DNA of 64,000 nucleotides from Bacteroides sp. (lineage in GTDB: Bacteria; Bacillota; Clostridia; Lachnospirales; Lachnospiraceae), in the NCBI GenBank assembly GCA_023666705.1, contig JAMPBO010000004.1:113895-177894 (forward strand), written 5' to 3'. The translations under genes were made by a program, and so were the position numbers. Position 1 is the first letter of the stretch, and the number at the start of each line of letters is the position of its first letter. This document shows positions 69 through 7,442 of this stretch, one piece after another. The notes below the pieces were generated by a model, which was not told where the DNA came from, did no database searches, and worked only from the letters and a program-made list of their open reading frames with translations.

Positions 69-683
69 TTATTTTTTCTTCTTGCCGATAAAATTTGCCC
101 CCATTAAGGAAGGTAATATATCTGTTTGACGTCCAATGTTGTTTAATTCGTTATGGGTAAGCGTATTTAGGTCCTTTAATTCCGAACTATCACCATATAT
201 TCTCTTAGATTTTTTAGGTTTTTTTTCGTCTTCTTCCTCTCCCCAATCAAACTCCAAATAGTAGCCGCCTGTTCCATCTTCATGGATAAACACTCCGTGA
301 CTTTTTACCAAGCCGCCAGTCAATTTACCTGACCACGGCATATCTGCGATTGACTGATACACTTTCTGCCGAAAGGCACTATCCTTTTTCATTCTGAATA
401 GGCTTTCCTTTGAAATAATTACAGTTCTACCACCATGCAAATCATATTTTTCTAACATTGCAGTATCATACAATTCTGCTTCTGCATCTGTTTTTGCACA
501 ACTGTTATCTACAACAACCGTATTAACATTAAACCTTTCGTCCAGAAATTTCTTCATTTCGGCAATATCTGTATTTTCATTTACCTGCTGTAGAAGCTTC
601 TCAAATCCATCTCCACGCTTTATTGCGTTGCTTGATGAATTTACAATATTACTGCTTTGTGGCAAAATTGCCTGTATATCCAT
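69..683 (-). CDS. DUF6033-like paralogue 1 (most divergent copy)
   Basis: A 204-aa protein of unknown function and the last member of a tandem paralogue array on this strand. It lacks an obvious signal peptide or membrane helix. It shares the array's layout: an unstructured N-terminus, a short helix that ends in a 'KFLDERF' type motif, an 'ISKESLFRMKKDSAF' segment matching the 'LEKMANDPE' segment of its neighbours, and a 'HGVFIHEDGTGGYYLEF' segment matching 'CGVIIHADGTVTYYL' in the next gene. It ends in a lysine-rich tail rather than the conserved SFDI(R/K)A tail of the other copies. The ATG follows AGGAAGG by eight bases. The resemblance to the DUF6033 family of Lachnospiraceae is from memory of sequence style and was not searched; the function is unknown. 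Confidence 0.75.
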   Translation of the reverse strand: MDIQAILPQSSNIVNSSSNAIKRGDGFEKLLQQVNENTDIAEMKKFLDERFNVNTVVVDNSCAKTDAEAELYDTAMLEKYDLHGGRTVIISKESLFRMKKDSAFRQKVYQSIADMPWSGKLTGGLVKSHGVFIHEDGTGGYYLEFDWGEEEDEKKPKKSKRIYGDSSELKDLNTLTHNELNNIGRQTDILPSLMGANFIGKKKK

Positions 684-794
684 ATTGTTGCCCTTCCTAT
701 ATGTGTTTCTCCATTGTTATCAATATTTATTGACGGTTCTTTAGTCATTCAGAACCACCTATGCCTCTTATGATAAGTCTGGACATATTTTGTC

Positions 795-1529
795 TTATTC
801 CAAAATGCCCGTTGCTTCCATGATGTGATTCTCGTAAGCCTCAATTGCGGAACTCATAACCTCTGATGTAGTTGTATATGTAACCCCGCTTGTGTCTACC
901 ATATAGCTTGCAATTACTTCCTCCATAGTTTGTTTCCTGTATGCTCTCTCCATCTCCTGCCTACGTTTTTCCGTTGCTTCTTGACTGCGTTTCAAATTCT
1001 CTTGACGTCGTGCCGCTTTCTTTTTCTGTTTTGCCTTTTGTTCAGCTTCTACCTTTGCTTTCTTTTCTGGTGATTCCTCACCGCTAAGATAATAGGTCAC
1101 AGTTCCGTCCGCATGTATTATTACTCCGCAGGAAGTAATCTTGTGTCCGATTGCTGCCATAAAAGCCTCCGTCTGTGGAAGGGAATCAAAGTGTTCCTGT
1201 ATTTTTTTCTCATAATAGGCAGCTTTTTCCGGGTCATTTGCCATTTGTTCCAAAATATTTGACGCAATAACAACATTTCCAGTCCCCGCAGTTCCCGCAC
1301 CAATACGATCTATGCTGCTTTGGTCTTTTCCTACATTCTGGATAGACACCCCTGCCCCATATCTCTGTTTCAAATATTCCGTGTAGGCATCTACCTTTGA
1401 CGTACCTGCCGCTTCCCCTGTTTTCTGTAACTGCTCCGTAAAACTTGCTCCACTTATGGCTGTTTTTTGTGTCCTGTTTGCATATTGATATGCACCCGCT
1501 AAAACGTCATTTACTCCTAAAATACTCAT
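795..1529 (-). CDS. DUF6033-like paralogue 2
   Basis: A 244-aa hypothetical protein starting MSILGVND, chosen over an upstream in-frame codon because GGAGGAG sits six bases before this ATG. Its order of parts is the one seen across the array: a low-complexity N-terminus, a 'YLKQRYG' motif near residue 58, an 'ASNILEQMANDPEKAAYYE' segment near 100, a beta-like 'ITSCGVIIHADGTVTYYL' segment, then a long Lys/Glu/Arg-rich helix (about residues 155-205) and a tail. The charged helix predicts a coiled coil. Its start overlaps the region just after the stop of a 50-aa ORF (1541-1693), so the two are probably translated together. No catalytic motif is visible. Confidence 0.8.
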   Translation of the reverse strand: MSILGVNDVLAGAYQYANRTQKTAISGASFTEQLQKTGEAAGTSKVDAYTEYLKQRYGAGVSIQNVGKDQSSIDRIGAGTAGTGNVVIASNILEQMANDPEKAAYYEKKIQEHFDSLPQTEAFMAAIGHKITSCGVIIHADGTVTYYLSGEESPEKKAKVEAEQKAKQKKKAARRQENLKRSQEATEKRRQEMERAYRKQTMEEVIASYMVDTSGVTYTTTSEVMSSAIEAYENHIMEATGILE

Positions 1530-1540
1530 TTTTTCTCCTC

Positions 1541-1693
1541 CTAACAACACGGTTCACTAAATTCGTTTTTCTTTGCCGTAACGCCCGTATCTCTCATGTA
1601 TTTATCCACCTCATGCTTTACAAGGCAGATAAAAACATCACATACATATTTTTCATATGTCCTTTTCACCACCGCATATTGCATTTTTATCAT
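1541..1693 (-). CDS. small 50-aa ORF coupled to paralogue 2
   Basis: A 50-codon reading frame beginning MIKMQYAVV and ending SEPCC. An AAAGGAGAA ribosome site lies directly in front of the ATG. Its TAG stop is part of the TTAGGAGGAG ribosome site of the next gene (795-1529), a layout typical of translational coupling. It is basic in the middle, has no membrane helix and no recognised domain, and carries a paired Cys-Cys at the C-terminus. It is the only open frame in the 1530-1885 gap with a good ribosome site. It may be a real small protein or a leader peptide for paralogue 2; no homologue is known to me. Confidence 0.5.
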   Translation of the reverse strand: MIKMQYAVVKRTYEKYVCDVFICLVKHEVDKYMRDTGVTAKKNEFSEPCC

Positions 1694-1885
1694 ATGTTCT
1701 CCTTTGGCTCTCCCTTAAACTATCGGAACATATAAATTTCTAACTAATGCCGATGACGTGAAAAGACACTTTGATAACGTAAATGGACAGTGCAAAGCGA
1801 GAATTATAACGATACCAGCCATTTGCAACATTTCTGATATGCTTTTCCCTATCGACAAATTTTAGAGGATTTTTGTGTACTTTAC

Positions 1886-2617
1886 TTATGCCCTAATATC
1901 AAAGCTTACCCCTGTGGACGCAGATGTATCAATCGATGCCGTGACAACCCTCTGCGTAACCGTTTTTATATCTGTACCTGTTGCACTTACCGTATACGTT
2001 CCCAGCTCTGTCCCTGCTTCTTCGGTTGCTTTTTGCTCTGCACGTTTTTTCGCTGTTTTTTCTTCCTCTGCCTTTTTTTCTGCCCGCTTTTTGGATGCCT
2101 TTTCCTCTGCCGTTTTCTTTTCCTGTGCTTTTCTTTTTGCATTTTCCCGTGCTATCTTTCCATCAGGATCATTTGTACCCGATGATATTATGGTTATATT
2201 TCCGTCGGCATCAAATTTGTAGGTAAGACTTGTCAAGGTTCCCAACGAATGAGATACGGCATATGCGGCACAATCAGGAATAGCCGCCAGATTCTCCTCC
2301 AAATATTTAGCCTTTTCAGGGTCATTCATGCATTTTTCTAAAAATGCACCTGAGACTGAAACCGTTGTCGGAACACCCTCCATTGAGGTTGTCCCTATAT
2401 TCATATAACTGTACTTTCCCTGTAAATATTTGGAATAGTCATTTACATTTTTATAGCCTGTCTTTATCTCCTCTTTTTTGGTTACACCGGGCGTCGAGGT
2501 TTTCAGCTCCACAACACTTGTTATTACATTACTTTCCTTTGTGGTACCTACATTTTTTGCTACATTCGTACTGCTTGCTGCATAATGATTATAATTGTTT
2601 GTAATCTCCATTGACAT
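1886..2617 (-). CDS. DUF6033-like paralogue 3
   Basis: A 243-aa hypothetical protein. The start is placed at MSMEITNNY, six bases after GGTGA; the same start context is repeated in the split copy upstream (3887). It has a 'YSKYLQGKYSYM' motif, a 'GAFLEKCMNDPEKAKYLEENL' segment, a 'TYKFDADGNITI' strand, a long Lys/Glu/Ala coiled-coil-like stretch of about 50 residues, and a C-terminal module (TGTDIK..Q.., SFDIRA at the end) that is nearly identical in the next two copies. The intergenic DNA before it (about 2640-2715) is also repeated at about 4010-4085. This points to recent tandem duplication. No enzymatic motif is seen. Confidence 0.8.
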   Translation of the reverse strand: MSMEITNNYNHYAASSTNVAKNVGTTKESNVITSVVELKTSTPGVTKKEEIKTGYKNVNDYSKYLQGKYSYMNIGTTSMEGVPTTVSVSGAFLEKCMNDPEKAKYLEENLAAIPDCAAYAVSHSLGTLTSLTYKFDADGNITIISSGTNDPDGKIARENAKRKAQEKKTAEEKASKKRAEKKAEEEKTAKKRAEQKATEEAGTELGTYTVSATGTDIKTVTQRVVTASIDTSASTGVSFDIRA

Positions 2618-2717
2618 ATTAGTCACCATTCCTTTCATTTTTAAATAATTCCTATAAATCCAACAGTCCATAAAAGTATATTTTAATCCCTCTTGCAAAA
2701 TACAAGAATAACAACAC

Positions 2718-3887
2718 CTACGCCTTTATATCAAAGCTTGTTCCTGTCGGGGCATCTGTACTAAGAGACACAGCGATAATTTTCTGCGAAACAGCTTTTA
2801 TATCCGTTCCTGTTACGGTATATTTACCCATTTCTGTCCCCGCTTCTTCGGCTGCTTTTTTCTCCGCCTGTCTTTCAGCCGCCTTTTCTTCCTCTATCTT
2901 TTTCTCTGCCCGCTTCTTATCAATCTTCTCTTTTTCTTCACGTTTCTTTTTTGCCTTTAAATAACGTTCTTCCTCTGCCTTATACTTTTTCTGTAGTTTA
3001 TTAACATCACTATTTCCATTTCCTGCATTTGCAGTTCTCATGCCGCCACAAGACGACTGCCTGTTTCCATCTGCATCATATGTAACAGTTCTTCCTCCAA
3101 GCACGACACCATCTCTTTTCGCCCACCCATAAACCATTGAATTTGCTGCCGCTTCTCCTGACAAATTCCATTCTATTTCCTTTGCAAATTCAGGGTCATT
3201 TGCCATTTTCTTCAAGCAGTCATACGAAAGATTTACAGTAACTTTGCCACTATTGCTTGCCAACACACCACCATTTGTATTGAAATTTATCTGTGGAAAT
3301 TTTTTACATAATTTCTCATAATATTCCTGTACCTTATCCTTGCTGTTTGTTGGTGTATTTGTTTTTACCTCTAAACTTTTTCCTTTCTCATGCTTTTTAT
3401 CCAATTTTTCTTTTTGTTTCTCATCTGTATTTAATATAGTTGAATTTTGTTTTGCACCGTTGGTTCTTGTCATACCACCACAAGTAACAGAAACATTCCC
3501 ATCAGCGTCCATTATAACCGTAACACCATGTATCACTACATTGTCTGCCTTAGCTTGTGTAAACATATTTTTCTGTCCCTGAACCATACCATTCAAATTA
3601 AACTCTACTTTTTTTGCAAATTCTGAATCGTTTGCCATTTTCTCAAGACATTTACTAGAAAGATTTAAAACAACTCTATTTTCATTTCCACTCACATTTC
3701 TGCCACCTGTGTTAAATGTAATATTTCCAAACTTTTTACATAGTTTCTCATAATATTCCTATACCTTATCCTTACTGTTTGTTGATATATTTGTTTTTCT
3801 CTTTATCGCCCTATTATCTGAATTTTCCGTGTTATCCGTATAATTTAATGCATAATGATTATAATTGTTTGTAATCTCCATTGACAT
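2718..3887 (-). pseudogene. DUF6033-like paralogue 4, split by an in-frame amber codon
   Basis: The reading frame runs from MSMEITNNY at 3887 to SFDIKA at 2718 but is interrupted by one TAG at 3759-3761. The residues on both sides are in the same frame. An internal duplicate in the same gene reads KDKVQEYYEKLCKKF, while the interrupted copy reads KDKV-stop-EYYEKLCKKF, so the TAG corresponds to a CAG glutamine codon. The gene carries two tandem copies of the family's core domain, each with 'KMAND.EFAK' and a 'VI.DADGN' strand, making it the longest member. The downstream part (from about 3695, GTG) could restart. It is either a fresh pseudogene or a suppressed or recoded gene. Confidence 0.75.
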
Positions 3888-4080
3888 ATCAGTCACCATT
3901 CCTCGTATTATAAAGTAGTAGTGTTTATAGTCCCTCTCCAAGGACTGTATGCTATACTGTTGGAGATACTATGGATTGGTTCTTCATTCTTACCACCTTT
4001 TGTTTTAAAAGAATTCCTAAAAATCCAACAGTCCATAAAGGTATATTTAAGCCCTCTGCAAAATACAAGAATAACAATAC

Positions 4081-4734
4081 CTACGCCTTTATATCAAAGC
4101 TTGCTCCTGCCGAGGCATCTGTGCCAAGAGACACAGCAATAATCTTCTGCGAAACAGCTTTTATATCCGTTCCTGTAACACTTACGGTATATTCGCCCGT
4201 TTCTGTCCCTGCTTCTTGGGCTGCTTTTTTCTCTGCCTGTCTTTTTGCTGCTTTTTCTTCCTCTGCTTTCTTTTCTTCTCGTCTCTCCTTAATTTTTTCT
4301 TCCAGCTCTTTTCTTGCTTTCTCTGTTCCCGGGTCAGCTTCAACCTGAGTAACAACTTCTGTCGTCATACTGTCATATCCGTTCATAGTGATATTGCAGC
4401 TTATCAATTTTGCACCTTGTGCTGCTACCGTTGATTTTATATTATTAACTACTTTTGGTATCAAGGATAAATTGTATTCCAGCCACATAGATGTTTTTTC
4501 ATCATTTGCGGCTTCTGCTAAAAGAGAACTGTTTATTGCTACAGTATAATCTGAGTTTTTCAGGCAGCCATATTTTTCCGTCAAATACGCTCCATACTCA
4601 CGAGTATTACTGTATGTTTTCTCTGTTGCCTGATTGCCTGTCGTTTTTCTCGCACTTTCAGGACCGTTCTTTTGTTTCGTGTCAGTACAGTAATTACTGT
4701 ACCGTGTATAATCATTTACTCCTGTAATTGCCAT
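4081..4734 (-). CDS. DUF6033-like paralogue 5 (first gene of the array)
   Basis: A 217-aa hypothetical protein starting MAITGVNDYTRY, with GAGGAGGG seven bases before the ATG. It has 'YLTEKYG' near residue 55, 'SSLLAEAANDEKTSMWLEYNL', and then a Glu/Lys-rich helix and the array's common C-terminal module ending SFDIKA. It is the promoter-proximal gene of the array. A LytTR-type repeat pair (4831-4860) lies about 100 bases upstream, so this gene is the likely entry point for transcription of the following copies. No signal peptide is visible; how or whether the protein is exported is unknown. Confidence 0.8.
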   Translation of the reverse strand: MAITGVNDYTRYSNYCTDTKQKNGPESARKTTGNQATEKTYSNTREYGAYLTEKYGCLKNSDYTVAINSSLLAEAANDEKTSMWLEYNLSLIPKVVNNIKSTVAAQGAKLISCNITMNGYDSMTTEVVTQVEADPGTEKARKELEEKIKERREEKKAEEEKAAKRQAEKKAAQEAGTETGEYTVSVTGTDIKAVSQKIIAVSLGTDASAGASFDIKA

Positions 4735-4830
4735 AATTTTGCCCTCCTCGAATTTTATCAGCCTTGTCTTTCCATTTCAGATAGCTACTACTTTATTTAT
4801 CGTATTATTTATTTTGACTATTATAAATTT

Positions 4831-4860
4831 GCCGTGAACCACTCTGTTTTGGGTGTGAAA
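4831..4860. promoter_or_regulatory. Candidate LytTR regulator binding site before the paralogue array
   Basis: On the minus strand the sequence reads TTTCACACC, a 12-base spacer, then GTTCACGGC. This is two imperfect 9-bp direct repeats 21 bp apart, the spacing known for AgrA/LytTR-type regulators. A TATAAT-like hexamer follows a few bases downstream towards the array. The same 9-12-9 arrangement with nearly the same half-site occurs before the LytTR regulator gene (7117-7146). Binding is inferred. Confidence 0.5.
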
Positions 4861-4873
4861 TTATAGTGTTGTA

Positions 4874-6316
4874 TCAATTTGCCACCGCAGGCTTCCCATT
4901 CATCATTACAGTAAGGCTAAATTTCTTTCTTTTCTCTGTATTAGTAATTACAATATCAATATCGCCCATATACTTCTTGGCACATCTTTGAATATTTGAA
5001 ATGCCGATACCATGCAGCTTTTTATTCTTTTTGCTGCTGATTGGCAAGCCGTTTTCTTCCTCAATGATAACTGTATCGCAAAAATCATTTTCAACCTCAA
5101 TAAAAAACAAGCTCCCCTTCACATAAGATGACAGCCTTATCTGTTTTTGTTCCTCCACCTTACAACACGCTTCTATGGCATTTTCCAGTGCATTATTCAG
5201 GATAACGGCAATATCATAAACATCTATTGAAAGCTTTGACGGATAGGTAAAATCCACATCAAACCGTATCTGCTTTTTCTCCATTTCCTGTCCCTTTTGA
5301 TGAATAATAATATCCGTAATGGGATTTCCTGTCTGATAGGCAAAGTCCAGCTTTTTTACAGTGTCCTCCATCTTGCCAATGTAACGCTCCAATTCTTCAT
5401 TTGCCGAACCGCCCTCCTGCTTTACAAGCAGGGAAATATTTGCCAAATGGCTTCTCATGTCGTGCCGCAGTCCCCTCATATCCGTATAGACGTCCTGTAT
5501 TTCCGAGATTTCCCGTTGCATTTGCTGCACTTGATTTTCCAGTATGGCACGCTTCTTTGTCTCCTCGTTGTACTCCACCAATTTCTGAAATAACACAACG
5601 CTGGCAATCATTGTCAAAAACAGAAGCACGCAAATAAACGGCACCCAAAACTTCGCAGCGGGAACCGTGTCATAAACCATAATTGTCATTCCATTTTCAA
5701 CCGATATAATCAACTTTTTTATTGTCACGGAAATGCAGAGTGCCGTAATACATGGCAAAATCAAAAACATATTTTCCTGCAAGTGCAATGGATAATCTTT
5801 TTTTATAAATGTTCTGCTCATGAGAAATACATACACAAACAACAGCAGGGCATACACCAGCAAATCAACAAGCATTAAAACGATAACGGAGAGGTTGAGC
5901 CATAAATACACCCTGTCCATTGTATTTAGTATATCTTTTTCCAGCAAAATATTTAAAAGTTTATTCTGCAATTCACCAAAGGCAATACTAAGCACACTGA
6001 CAATATGTTTTACAATTTCTCTCCCCGCAACAAAGCTGAACACAACAAAAAACTGTTTTTGCAAATCCACTTTAAAGAATAGAAGCTGCATGGACAGCAG
6101 GATACAAATATTTAAAATGATGCCTGTGACTTCATGGAATGAAAATTTGTTGTCCAATCGTTCAACAACAAAAATCTGAATTAACATATATACAGCAGTC
6201 CATAACACCCACACTGACCGTTTCCTAAATTTTTTCTGCAAAAAATTTCGTGTGTAGACACCGCTGAATATACTGTCAATGAAATATATACAGACTAGGA
6301 ATACCATATCAGACAT
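4874..6316 (-). CDS. AgrC/ComD-like GHKL sensor histidine kinase
   Basis: A 480-aa sensor kinase. The N-terminal half has about six hydrophobic segments (residues 5-235), as in peptide-pheromone receptors. A coiled linker follows, then an H-box 'RHDMRSH' with the phospho-accepting His near residue 284, an N-box 'NALENAIEAC' near 375 and a glycine-rich 'HGIGISNIQR' near 435, the hallmarks of the GHKL ATPase family. The start is ATG at 6316 after GGAGGGC; it overlaps the end of the regulator gene (stop 6309-6311) by eight bases, so the two genes are coupled. No agrD or agrB gene is seen nearby, so the signal is unknown. Its likely partner is the LytTR regulator just upstream. Confidence 0.85.
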   Translation of the reverse strand: MSDMVFLVCIYFIDSIFSGVYTRNFLQKKFRKRSVWVLWTAVYMLIQIFVVERLDNKFSFHEVTGIILNICILLSMQLLFFKVDLQKQFFVVFSFVAGREIVKHIVSVLSIAFGELQNKLLNILLEKDILNTMDRVYLWLNLSVIVLMLVDLLVYALLLFVYVFLMSRTFIKKDYPLHLQENMFLILPCITALCISVTIKKLIISVENGMTIMVYDTVPAAKFWVPFICVLLFLTMIASVVLFQKLVEYNEETKKRAILENQVQQMQREISEIQDVYTDMRGLRHDMRSHLANISLLVKQEGGSANEELERYIGKMEDTVKKLDFAYQTGNPITDIIIHQKGQEMEKKQIRFDVDFTYPSKLSIDVYDIAVILNNALENAIEACCKVEEQKQIRLSSYVKGSLFFIEVENDFCDTVIIEEENGLPISSKKNKKLHGIGISNIQRCAKKYMGDIDIVITNTEKRKKFSLTVMMNGKPAVAN

Positions 6317-7034
6317 TGATAAGCCCTCCATTTTTTACATACCGCATATATGCCTTGACAAAATCACTATATTTTCGCTGTGCAAGTATCAGCCTATCCC
6401 CATTTGCAACCTCTATGGTGCTTGCATTATAGGAAATAATATTCTCCATATTTACAAGATAACAGCGATGGCAACGGTAAAAGCTGCTGCCTGTTATATG
6501 CTCCATCGCCTCCATCTTTCCATAACACTCCAATGTACCCATTTTCGTATGAATAATGACCTTTTTGTTTGCACTCTCAATATAATAAATATCCCTGATA
6601 TAAACTTTTCTCTGCGTGTCAGTGCTTTTCACCAAAATGTACCGTTTTGTCTGCTCATCTGCCGCCAGCAGCTCCTTTGCTGCCCGTCCGAATACATTGC
6701 TGAACTTTTCTTCATCCACAGGCTTTAACAGATAATGAAACGCCGATACATCAAATGCATCGTTCATATATTTTTCATAGCCTGTCACAAAAATGATAAT
6801 ACTCTTTGCCCCTGTTTTTTTCTCCTGCCCACAGCGAATGTGCTTTGCAACGTCCATGCCCGACACTTCCCCCATTTTCACGTCCAAAAAATAAATGTCA
6901 AAGTGCTCCTGTCGCTTCAATAGCTCCTCCCCAGTTGCAAATTCCGTAATCTGAGCATAACCTGCCTGCTCTTTTATCAAGGAAATAATTTGCCCCCTCG
7001 TTGCTTTATCGTCATCGCAGACTGCTATTTTCAT
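6309..7034 (-). CDS. LytTR-family response regulator (AgrA-like)
   Basis: A 241-aa regulator. Residues 1-120 form a receiver domain: acidic DDD near residue 7, phospho-Asp in 'FLDVKMGEVSG' near 51, and Lys in 'LLKPVDEE' near 105. Residues about 135-235 match a LytTR DNA-binding domain ('YILVKSTD', 'FYRCHRCYLVNMENI'). MKIAVCDDD at 7034 is preferred to a GTG four codons earlier. It is the first gene of a two-gene operon with the GHKL kinase. A LytTR-type repeat pair sits at 7117-7146, which suggests autoregulation. Confidence 0.88.
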   Translation of the reverse strand: MKIAVCDDDKATRGQIISLIKEQAGYAQITEFATGEELLKRQEHFDIYFLDVKMGEVSGMDVAKHIRCGQEKKTGAKSIIIFVTGYEKYMNDAFDVSAFHYLLKPVDEEKFSNVFGRAAKELLAADEQTKRYILVKSTDTQRKVYIRDIYYIESANKKVIIHTKMGTLECYGKMEAMEHITGSSFYRCHRCYLVNMENIISYNASTIEVANGDRLILAQRKYSDFVKAYMRYVKNGGLINV

Positions 7035-7116
7035 AAACTGTTTCACTTCCTTTGGTTTTTATGAAATAATCCTTATCTGATGTATCGGCTTATTTCATTT
7101 TTATATTTTGTCCATT

Positions 7117-7146
7117 GGTGTGAAATACTAATTTTAAGGTGTGAAT
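7117..7146. promoter_or_regulatory. Candidate LytTR regulator binding site before its own gene
   Basis: Plus-strand GGTGTGAAA at 7117 and GGTGTGAAT at 7138 are direct repeats 21 bp apart with a 12-bp spacer. They lie about 85 bp before the LytTR regulator start. A second pair with the same geometry lies before the DUF6033-like array. The repeat is seen; binding by this regulator is inferred from family behaviour. Confidence 0.5.
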
Positions 7147-7343: not shown

Positions 7344-7442
7344 CTATTTGTGCGTTTTGTTACTATCCTTACCGATAGAATATCCTATTCCAAAGCAGGT
7401 CAAGCCAAAACTCAACACTGCAATCAGTCCTAAAATATCCAT
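7344..7442 (-). CDS. 32-aa hydrophobic peptide, type I toxin-like
   Basis: A 32-aa peptide beginning MDILGLIAVLSFGL and ending GKDSNKTHK. It has one membrane helix (about residues 4-22) and a charged, Lys-rich C-terminal tail, the form of holin-like and Fst/TxpA-type toxins. AGGAGGGC lies directly upstream of the ATG. The surrounding UTR has hairpins and a shared inverted motif on both sides (7271-7295, 7515-7544), compatible with an antisense RNA antitoxin. Similar short 'LGLI..LS..C.G.GY..GKD' peptides are, from memory, common in Lachnospiraceae. It could instead be a harmless small membrane protein. Confidence 0.6.
   Translation of the reverse strand: MDILGLIAVLSFGLTCFGIGYSIGKDSNKTHK

Follow-up and report, generated by a model that had tools for sequence, protein, structure and literature searches.

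A DUF6033 gene array behind a LytTR/GHKL two-component system in a Lachnospiraceae genome, with a predicted link to the flagellar regulon and its export apparatus

Five DUF6033 genes (Pfam family PF19498) lie head to tail on the minus strand of a 64,000-nucleotide stretch of a Lachnospiraceae genome (contig JAMPBO010000004.1; the whole stretch is called the window, and positions refer to it). Read from position 7146 down to 69 on that strand, the order is a tandem repeat, a sigma-28-like promoter, a LytTR regulator, a GHKL kinase, a second tandem repeat and the five DUF6033 genes, which occupy 69-4734. Judged from sequence, this array is an instance of a module that is found repeatedly and consists of a LytTR regulator, a GHKL membrane kinase and at least one DUF6033 gene, and DUF6033 is part of the flagellar programme of Clostridia, mainly Lachnospiraceae, with the use of sigma-28 predicted from promoter patterns. 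A link of DUF6033 to the flagellum is very probable. The best explanation reaches further and is held with less assurance, namely that these are sensor-controlled proteins of the flagellar regulon which are probably exported via the flagellar type III apparatus; this would make the array a repertoire of secreted proteins that can be switched on, and not a bacteriocin cluster under density control. Co-occurrence with the export gate FlhA, sigma-28-type promoters and FliE-like N-termini jointly point to this apparatus. The original prediction on this DNA had spoken of secreted effectors; secretion is plausible, by a route that was not foreseen there.

DUF6033 and the flagellar export gate are found in the same genomes. 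In a sample of 299 Lachnospiraceae genomes, almost one per genus, DUF6033 is carried by 99, and FlhA is present in 98 of these as against 57 of the 200 others (155 of 299 overall; p=1.5e-36, uncorrected for phylogeny). FlhA also occurs in all four genomes of other families with DUF6033 over the cut-off. Genome G558, from another family, has flhA and a fliA-type gene some 5 kb away from a DUF6033 gene that carries a perfect sigma-28-type promoter and has an FlxA-family gene as its neighbour. An FlxA-like gene (PF14282) adjoins DUF6033 in two families outside Lachnospiraceae (loci L179, over the cut-off, and L185, below it), and the one in L185 carries a C-terminal tail as in DUF6033 proteins, whereas FlxA and DUF6033 are unrelated as sequence families. 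The type VII marker WXG100 shows no association (30 of 99 DUF6033 genomes versus 52 of 200 others, p=0.49) and has no match in the genome under study, and a type VII secretion route was rejected on these grounds.

The control region carries candidate sites for both the LytTR regulator and sigma-28. Upstream of the regulator gene lies a tandem LytTR-type box (7117-7146, minus strand; ATTCACACC-N12-TTTCACACC, period 21), which with one mismatch is the best match of the repeat in the whole genome. A second tandem box (4831-4860, minus strand; TTTCACACC-N12-GTTCACGGC) lies between the kinase and gene 5, the first gene of the array, and is a three-mismatch match in the same scan. Four other three-mismatch matches are counted as chance, because the repeat pattern overall gives no more matches than its reversed control. 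As the best match in the genome stands before the regulator and a weaker one before gene 5, the predicted targets of the regulator are its own operon and the array. A period of 21 or 22 between 9-bp direct repeats is the LytTR regulator spacing known from AgrA-type sites. With a regulator, a kinase and 9-bp direct repeats with a 12-bp spacer as putative binding sites, the locus has the make-up of a LytTR/GHKL two-component system, and the matching sites claimed in the original prediction are present.

Next to the first box stands a promoter of sigma-28 (FliA/SigD) type (7082-7112, minus strand), whose -10 element GCCGATAC at 7089-7082 follows the start of the second 9-bp unit of this tandem box by 35 bp. 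The sigma-28 consensus for the bacterial group is TAAA, a spacer of 15-17 and (M)CGATA or CCGATAT (PMC3720852). Before gene 5, a possible weak sigma-28-like -10 element (TACGATAA, 4797-4804, minus strand) is suggestive, with a score of 12.5 that is below the 95th percentile of the background. When 250 bp upstream of each gene were scored against 201 other genes of the same loci as background, this percentile was reached by nine of ten regulator heads (p=1e-6) and by 18 of 33 core-type DUF6033 genes (p=2e-9 for the shift). A strict pattern of TAAA-N14..16-GCCGATA has seven matches across the genome, equal to the reversed control, and is thus uninformative alone. A composite scan for the repeat, 32-39 bp and NCCGATA, with at most one mismatch over 2.13 Mb, gave 12 matches versus 1.0 in shuffled sequence, and 11 of the 12 stand immediately upstream of such a regulator operon or of a solitary DUF6033 gene. 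When repeats with up to two mismatches were accepted, both elements, the 9-bp repeat (period 21-22) and some 35 bp further downstream a sigma-28 -10 element, were present in 18 of 22 regulator-kinase-DUF6033 operons, which come from about ten genera and include those of sister species. The repeat sequence varies by operon (TTTCACACC, TTTCGTTCC, TTTCATTCC, ACCGTTCAC) at constant geometry, as is expected for regulators of separate specificities. The promoter pattern TAAA-N15..17-CCGATA places the window's regulator operon, and most of the operons homologous to it, in a putative sigma-28 regulon. Among the papers listed by searches of the open-access literature, none deals with LytTR regulators at sigma-28 promoters.

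The two-component system had originally been called Agr-like, with production of the array proteins expected at high cell density. It is indeed like Agr-type LytTR/GHKL systems in its LytTR regulator, its polytopic GHKL kinase and its 9-bp repeats with a 12-bp spacer, and differs from them in that the operon is without agrB and agrD, its sites abut a sigma-28-type promoter and its output is a DUF6033 array. AgrB is encoded three times in the genome, on contigs C2, C29 and C25 and not on that of the window (C26). Agr quorum sensing proper was rejected because agrB and agrD are not beside the operon. Control by cell density is not supported, and the operon promoter is of the flagellar sigma-28 type.

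The family assignment made at first sight was correct, since in a profile search all five array proteins score above the curated Pfam cut-off of 25 bits for DUF6033 (25.2, 95.4, 36.4, 98.4 and 39.6 bits for genes 1 to 5), with gene 1 marginal. All on the minus strand, the array starts with gene 5 (4081-4734, 217 aa), which ends in SFDIKA, and proceeds through gene 4 (2718-3887), with two DUF6033 domains and the same tail, gene 3 (1886-2617, 243 aa, tail SFDIRA) and gene 2 (795-1529, 244 aa, N-terminal FTEQL at residue 30, without the tail) to gene 1 (69-683, 204 aa, N-terminal FEKLL at residue 27, also without the tail). The predicted head-to-tail set with one split copy and a shared SFDI(R/K)A ending in three genes is therefore real. 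The split copy is gene 4, which has a single in-frame TAG at codon 43 (3759-3761); in a sister species (G602; L190 9879-11048) its orthologue is intact at 389 aa. No transmembrane-type hydrophobic segment was found in the five proteins, and an NCBIfam search of them gave no credible match. The regulator (6309-7034, minus strand; Response_reg plus LytTR, 241 aa) and the GHKL kinase (4874-6316, minus strand; HATPase_c_5, 480 aa) were assigned by Pfam search; their genes overlap by 8 bp, and the N-terminal half of the kinase has about six hydrophobic segments. Further upstream of the regulator (7344-7442, minus strand), a small open reading frame, MDILGLIAVLSFGLTCFGIGYSIGKDSNKTHK, resembles a holin-like small toxin as judged by eye. 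An Rfam search of the window found no RNA.

The array has been shaped by segmental duplication. Repeat copy A (3996-4301, minus strand), which comprises the C-terminal module of gene 5 and intergenic DNA, matches copy B (2631-2932, minus strand), its counterpart from gene 4, over 308 bp at 84.7% identity (4301-3996 against 2932-2631). A second pair (3903-3849 against 2633-2579) covers 55 bp at 98%, and the repeated intergenic DNA is thus longer than was claimed. The suspected domain duplication in one copy lies within gene 4 (3798-3594 against 3366-3162, 74%). C-terminal module, intergenic DNA and the first codons of the next gene together make up the near-duplicate segments, so that the array grew by duplication of such segments. 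The label 'fast-evolving' suits the gene content, for the copy-number comparison in relatives gave from 0 to 14 DUF6033 matches per genome within the genus, a rapid turnover and not a single stable copy. It does not suit the sequences themselves, as dN/dS against sister-species orthologues is 0.29, 0.40 and 0.23 for genes 1, 2 and 5 (0.22 for the kinase and 0.10 for the regulator in the same comparison), values indicative of purifying selection. Positive selection on the array was accordingly rejected at the whole-gene level. In sum, the original observation was confirmed and its interpretation partly supported.

The proposed coupling of such genes to a two-component system recurs beyond the window. 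The genome (2.86 Mb) has 13 DUF6033 matches; three groups (the window, L015 and L016) come after a LytTR/GHKL pair, and two (L012 and L013) adjoin a BlaI/BlaR1-type pair. LytTR-GHKL-DUF6033 operons occur across about ten genera, and a second family has them too (G558, L181). In most DUF6033-bearing genomes, a single and better conserved 'core' copy stands alone. Culturable motile relatives with such a core gene include Eubacterium oxidoreducens DSM 3217 and a Butyrivibrio laboratory strain. Coupling to BlaI/BlaR1 (Penicillinase_R/Peptidase_M56) was seen at L012 7627-10499, L013 8992-11596, L071, L087, L191, L197, L198 and L200; as these pairs take the place of LytTR/GHKL, two unrelated kinds of sensor adjoin one protein family. 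Around the operon in L016 (554-2169 and 9395-9961) lie four paralogues with an MSIxGIG... N-terminus, some with an FxxxM/I motif, which have no Pfam match. A branch of DUF6033 heads or flanks CLI_3235-type clusters for ribosomally synthesized and post-translationally modified peptides (RiPPs) in three genomes of three families (L060 7083-18515, L182 9021-19368, L184 9209-16557), with a precursor of TIGR04065, a protease, an ABC transporter and, in L184, the radical SAM maturase CcpM. Each time that Thermotoga maritima, a flagellate outside Clostridia, served as search control, its DUF6033 match stayed below the threshold. No function, solved structure or paper on DUF6033 was found in the open-access literature; the array genes share family PF19498, and what is gained here is the flagellar link.

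Candidate export signals are found at both ends of the proteins. The signal of early flagellar substrates has two parts: the extreme N-terminus is hydrophobic, and a docking motif follows at a distance of about 26 residues or more (PMC8983047). In the genome under study, proteins named by sequence and operon place have FDTIL at residue 34 (FliE), FASFM at 33 (FliK) and FLQLL at 34 (FlgD), and the small protein after FlgD has FQAIL at 37. An N-terminal FxxxL is present in array genes 1 and 2 and not in genes 3-5. Motif statistics cover 131 DUF6033 proteins, 64 with the C-terminal tail and 67 without. Among the tail-less members, 35 of 66 phenylalanines at residues 20-50 have a hydrophobic residue at +4 (base rate 0.18, p=1.4e-10), with FxxxL mostly at residues 27-32; among the tailed members, none of 14 does. 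The motif and the tail are mutually exclusive, the motif occurring in 0 of 64 tailed versus 34 of 67 tail-less proteins (p=5e-13) and, after clustering at 45% identity, in 0 of 20 versus 10 of 26 (p=0.002). Part of DUF6033 resembles FliE, FliK and FlgD of this genome in such a candidate signal, with a hydrophobic N-terminus and FxxxL about 27-32 residues in, whereas DUF6033 proteins are not known flagellar parts, are encoded away from the fla/che cluster of the genome and stand under putative LytTR plus sigma-28 control.

The tail, hDh followed by K/R/S/T/Q and one residue, ends 64 of the 131 DUF6033 proteins versus seven of 842 background proteins. Preceded by glycine, the tail is further found at the end of nine of 206 same-strand neighbours outside DUF6033 versus two of 842 background proteins (p=1.4e-5), and for this reason it looks like a transferable C-terminal address. 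Whether it serves as the binding site of an export chaperone is conjecture. Proteins of other families with an hDh(K/R/S)x tail were seen beside DUF6033 genes at L010 7907-8983, L091 8355-9461, L097 9675-10643, L185 1071-1838, L066 10271-10831 and L076 8817-9395, and are possibly other cargo with the same export address.

Structure models, of moderate confidence, agree for the core protein and gene 2 on a disordered N-terminus (the first 26-45 residues), a small alpha/beta domain and a long charged helix. The domain holds the VVLIDEEKIERMAxDE and VNDNGTxSFFAV elements that are conserved in core proteins. No solved structure was matched convincingly by Foldseek with the two models (best E 0.67 and 0.49) or by VIA with the core model alone (best Z 4.6), and nothing came out of a profile search against PDB sequences. 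As the models were built from 42 and 20 sequences, with mean pLDDT of 69 and 75, no new fold is claimed.

These features can be joined into a sequence of events. Hook completion would free sigma-28 and make the regulator/kinase operon transcribable. The kinase would sense an extracellular cue and phosphorylate the LytTR regulator, which would bind the tandem repeat abutting the -35 element and activate the sigma-28 promoter, a form of autoregulation, and would switch on the array by binding the second repeat before gene 5. The array products would then be exported through the flagellar channel, some of them as early-type substrates by a hydrophobic N-terminus and an FxxxL docking motif like FliE, FliK and FlgD. 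Others would be recognised at their C-terminal hDh(K/R)x tail by a receptor, which may be a chaperone of late type. Outside, they may act as secreted or flagellum-associated proteins.

Several observations weigh against export or against a general flagellar link. The co-occurrence statistic ignores phylogeny, and within the genus FlhA is found in 36 of 37 genomes and DUF6033 in 26 of 37, with no independent losses of FlhA; as FlhA is nearly universal there, loss of flagella within the genus cannot be used as an independent test. One genome of the family sample, G235, has DUF6033 without FlhA. Its copy (L186 9316-9960) is a short core protein of 214 aa with an intact tail (GQTIDYSV), either a remnant of a lost flagellar system or a case that departs from the link. 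The core gene of the genome under study has no clear sigma-28 promoter within 250 bp (score 10.5), the L181 operon of another family has the LytTR pair without a sigma-28 site, and the RiPP-linked members are without sigma-28-type promoters. At the N-terminus, half of the members have no FxxxL, and this motif is frequent in unrelated proteins (410 of 1,234 phenylalanines), so that its case rests on position and on the low base rate within DUF6033 proteins. Finally, sigma-28 control alone would equally fit a cytoplasmic motility protein.

Among the alternatives, the least unlikely is that DUF6033 proteins decorate or adjust the flagellum at the hook or filament, the paralogues being alternative surface coats picked by the sensor. 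Export is common to this reading and to the best explanation, and the site of action differs. Sigma-28-type control, FliE-like N-termini, FlxA-family neighbours and one widespread core copy speak for it, whereas homology to any structural flagellar family is absent and the models lack a pair of N- and C-terminal helices as is typical for axial proteins. Slightly less likely still are proteins of the sigma-28 regulon that are never exported and modulate flagellar assembly or chemotaxis from within the cytoplasm (chaperone-like, anti-sigma-like or acting on the motor). The FlhA co-occurrence and promoter evidence serve them equally well, and the highly charged long helix and the single conserved copy in many genomes are in their favour; against them stand the N-terminal motif placed as in early export substrates in about half of the tail-less members, the disorder of the N-termini in both models, which is expected of export substrates, and the large diversified arrays, unusual for core chaperones. 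Competing toxins or bacteriocins under peptide quorum sensing, as originally envisaged, are improbable: tandem, variable and duplicated genes with a common C-terminal module, 0-14 copies in one genus and the RiPP clusters of three other genomes (the only bacteriocin link found, and through a distinct DUF6033 branch) are met by purifying selection, a sigma-28-type promoter, no agrB or agrD beside the operon and no recognisable toxin, immunity gene, leader peptide or RiPP maturation gene in the window region.

Export through the flagellar apparatus thus stays the favoured reading, at a probability somewhat above even. Non-flagellar cargo of this route is known in Campylobacter and relatives, for example the Cia proteins and FlaC (PMC2764114, PMC4863622). 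The proposed route is alike, whereas DUF6033 is found in Clostridia, is multi-copy, has a dedicated two-component system and is exported by prediction. The open-access literature yielded no counterpart in Clostridia that is family-wide, multi-copy and sensor-controlled and that couples LytTR sites with sigma-28 promoters. In a wider and more tentative proposal, to which we give somewhat less than even chances, the flagellar export gate would serve motile Clostridia as a general secretion route for a large and diversifying non-flagellar family, with sets of DUF6033 genes wired to LytTR/GHKL or elsewhere BlaI/BlaR1-type sensors via a composite LytTR-plus-sigma-28 promoter, and only cells that have finished the hook and receive the right cue would release the proteins. 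DUF6033 occurs in a third of the sampled genera of a dominant gut family and was previously without an assigned function; the link to the flagellar gate and to the composite promoter offers a first testable one. If export holds true, the flagella of commensals would be secretion devices with sensor-controlled cargo, which would bear on how motile gut bacteria deal with their neighbours and hosts.

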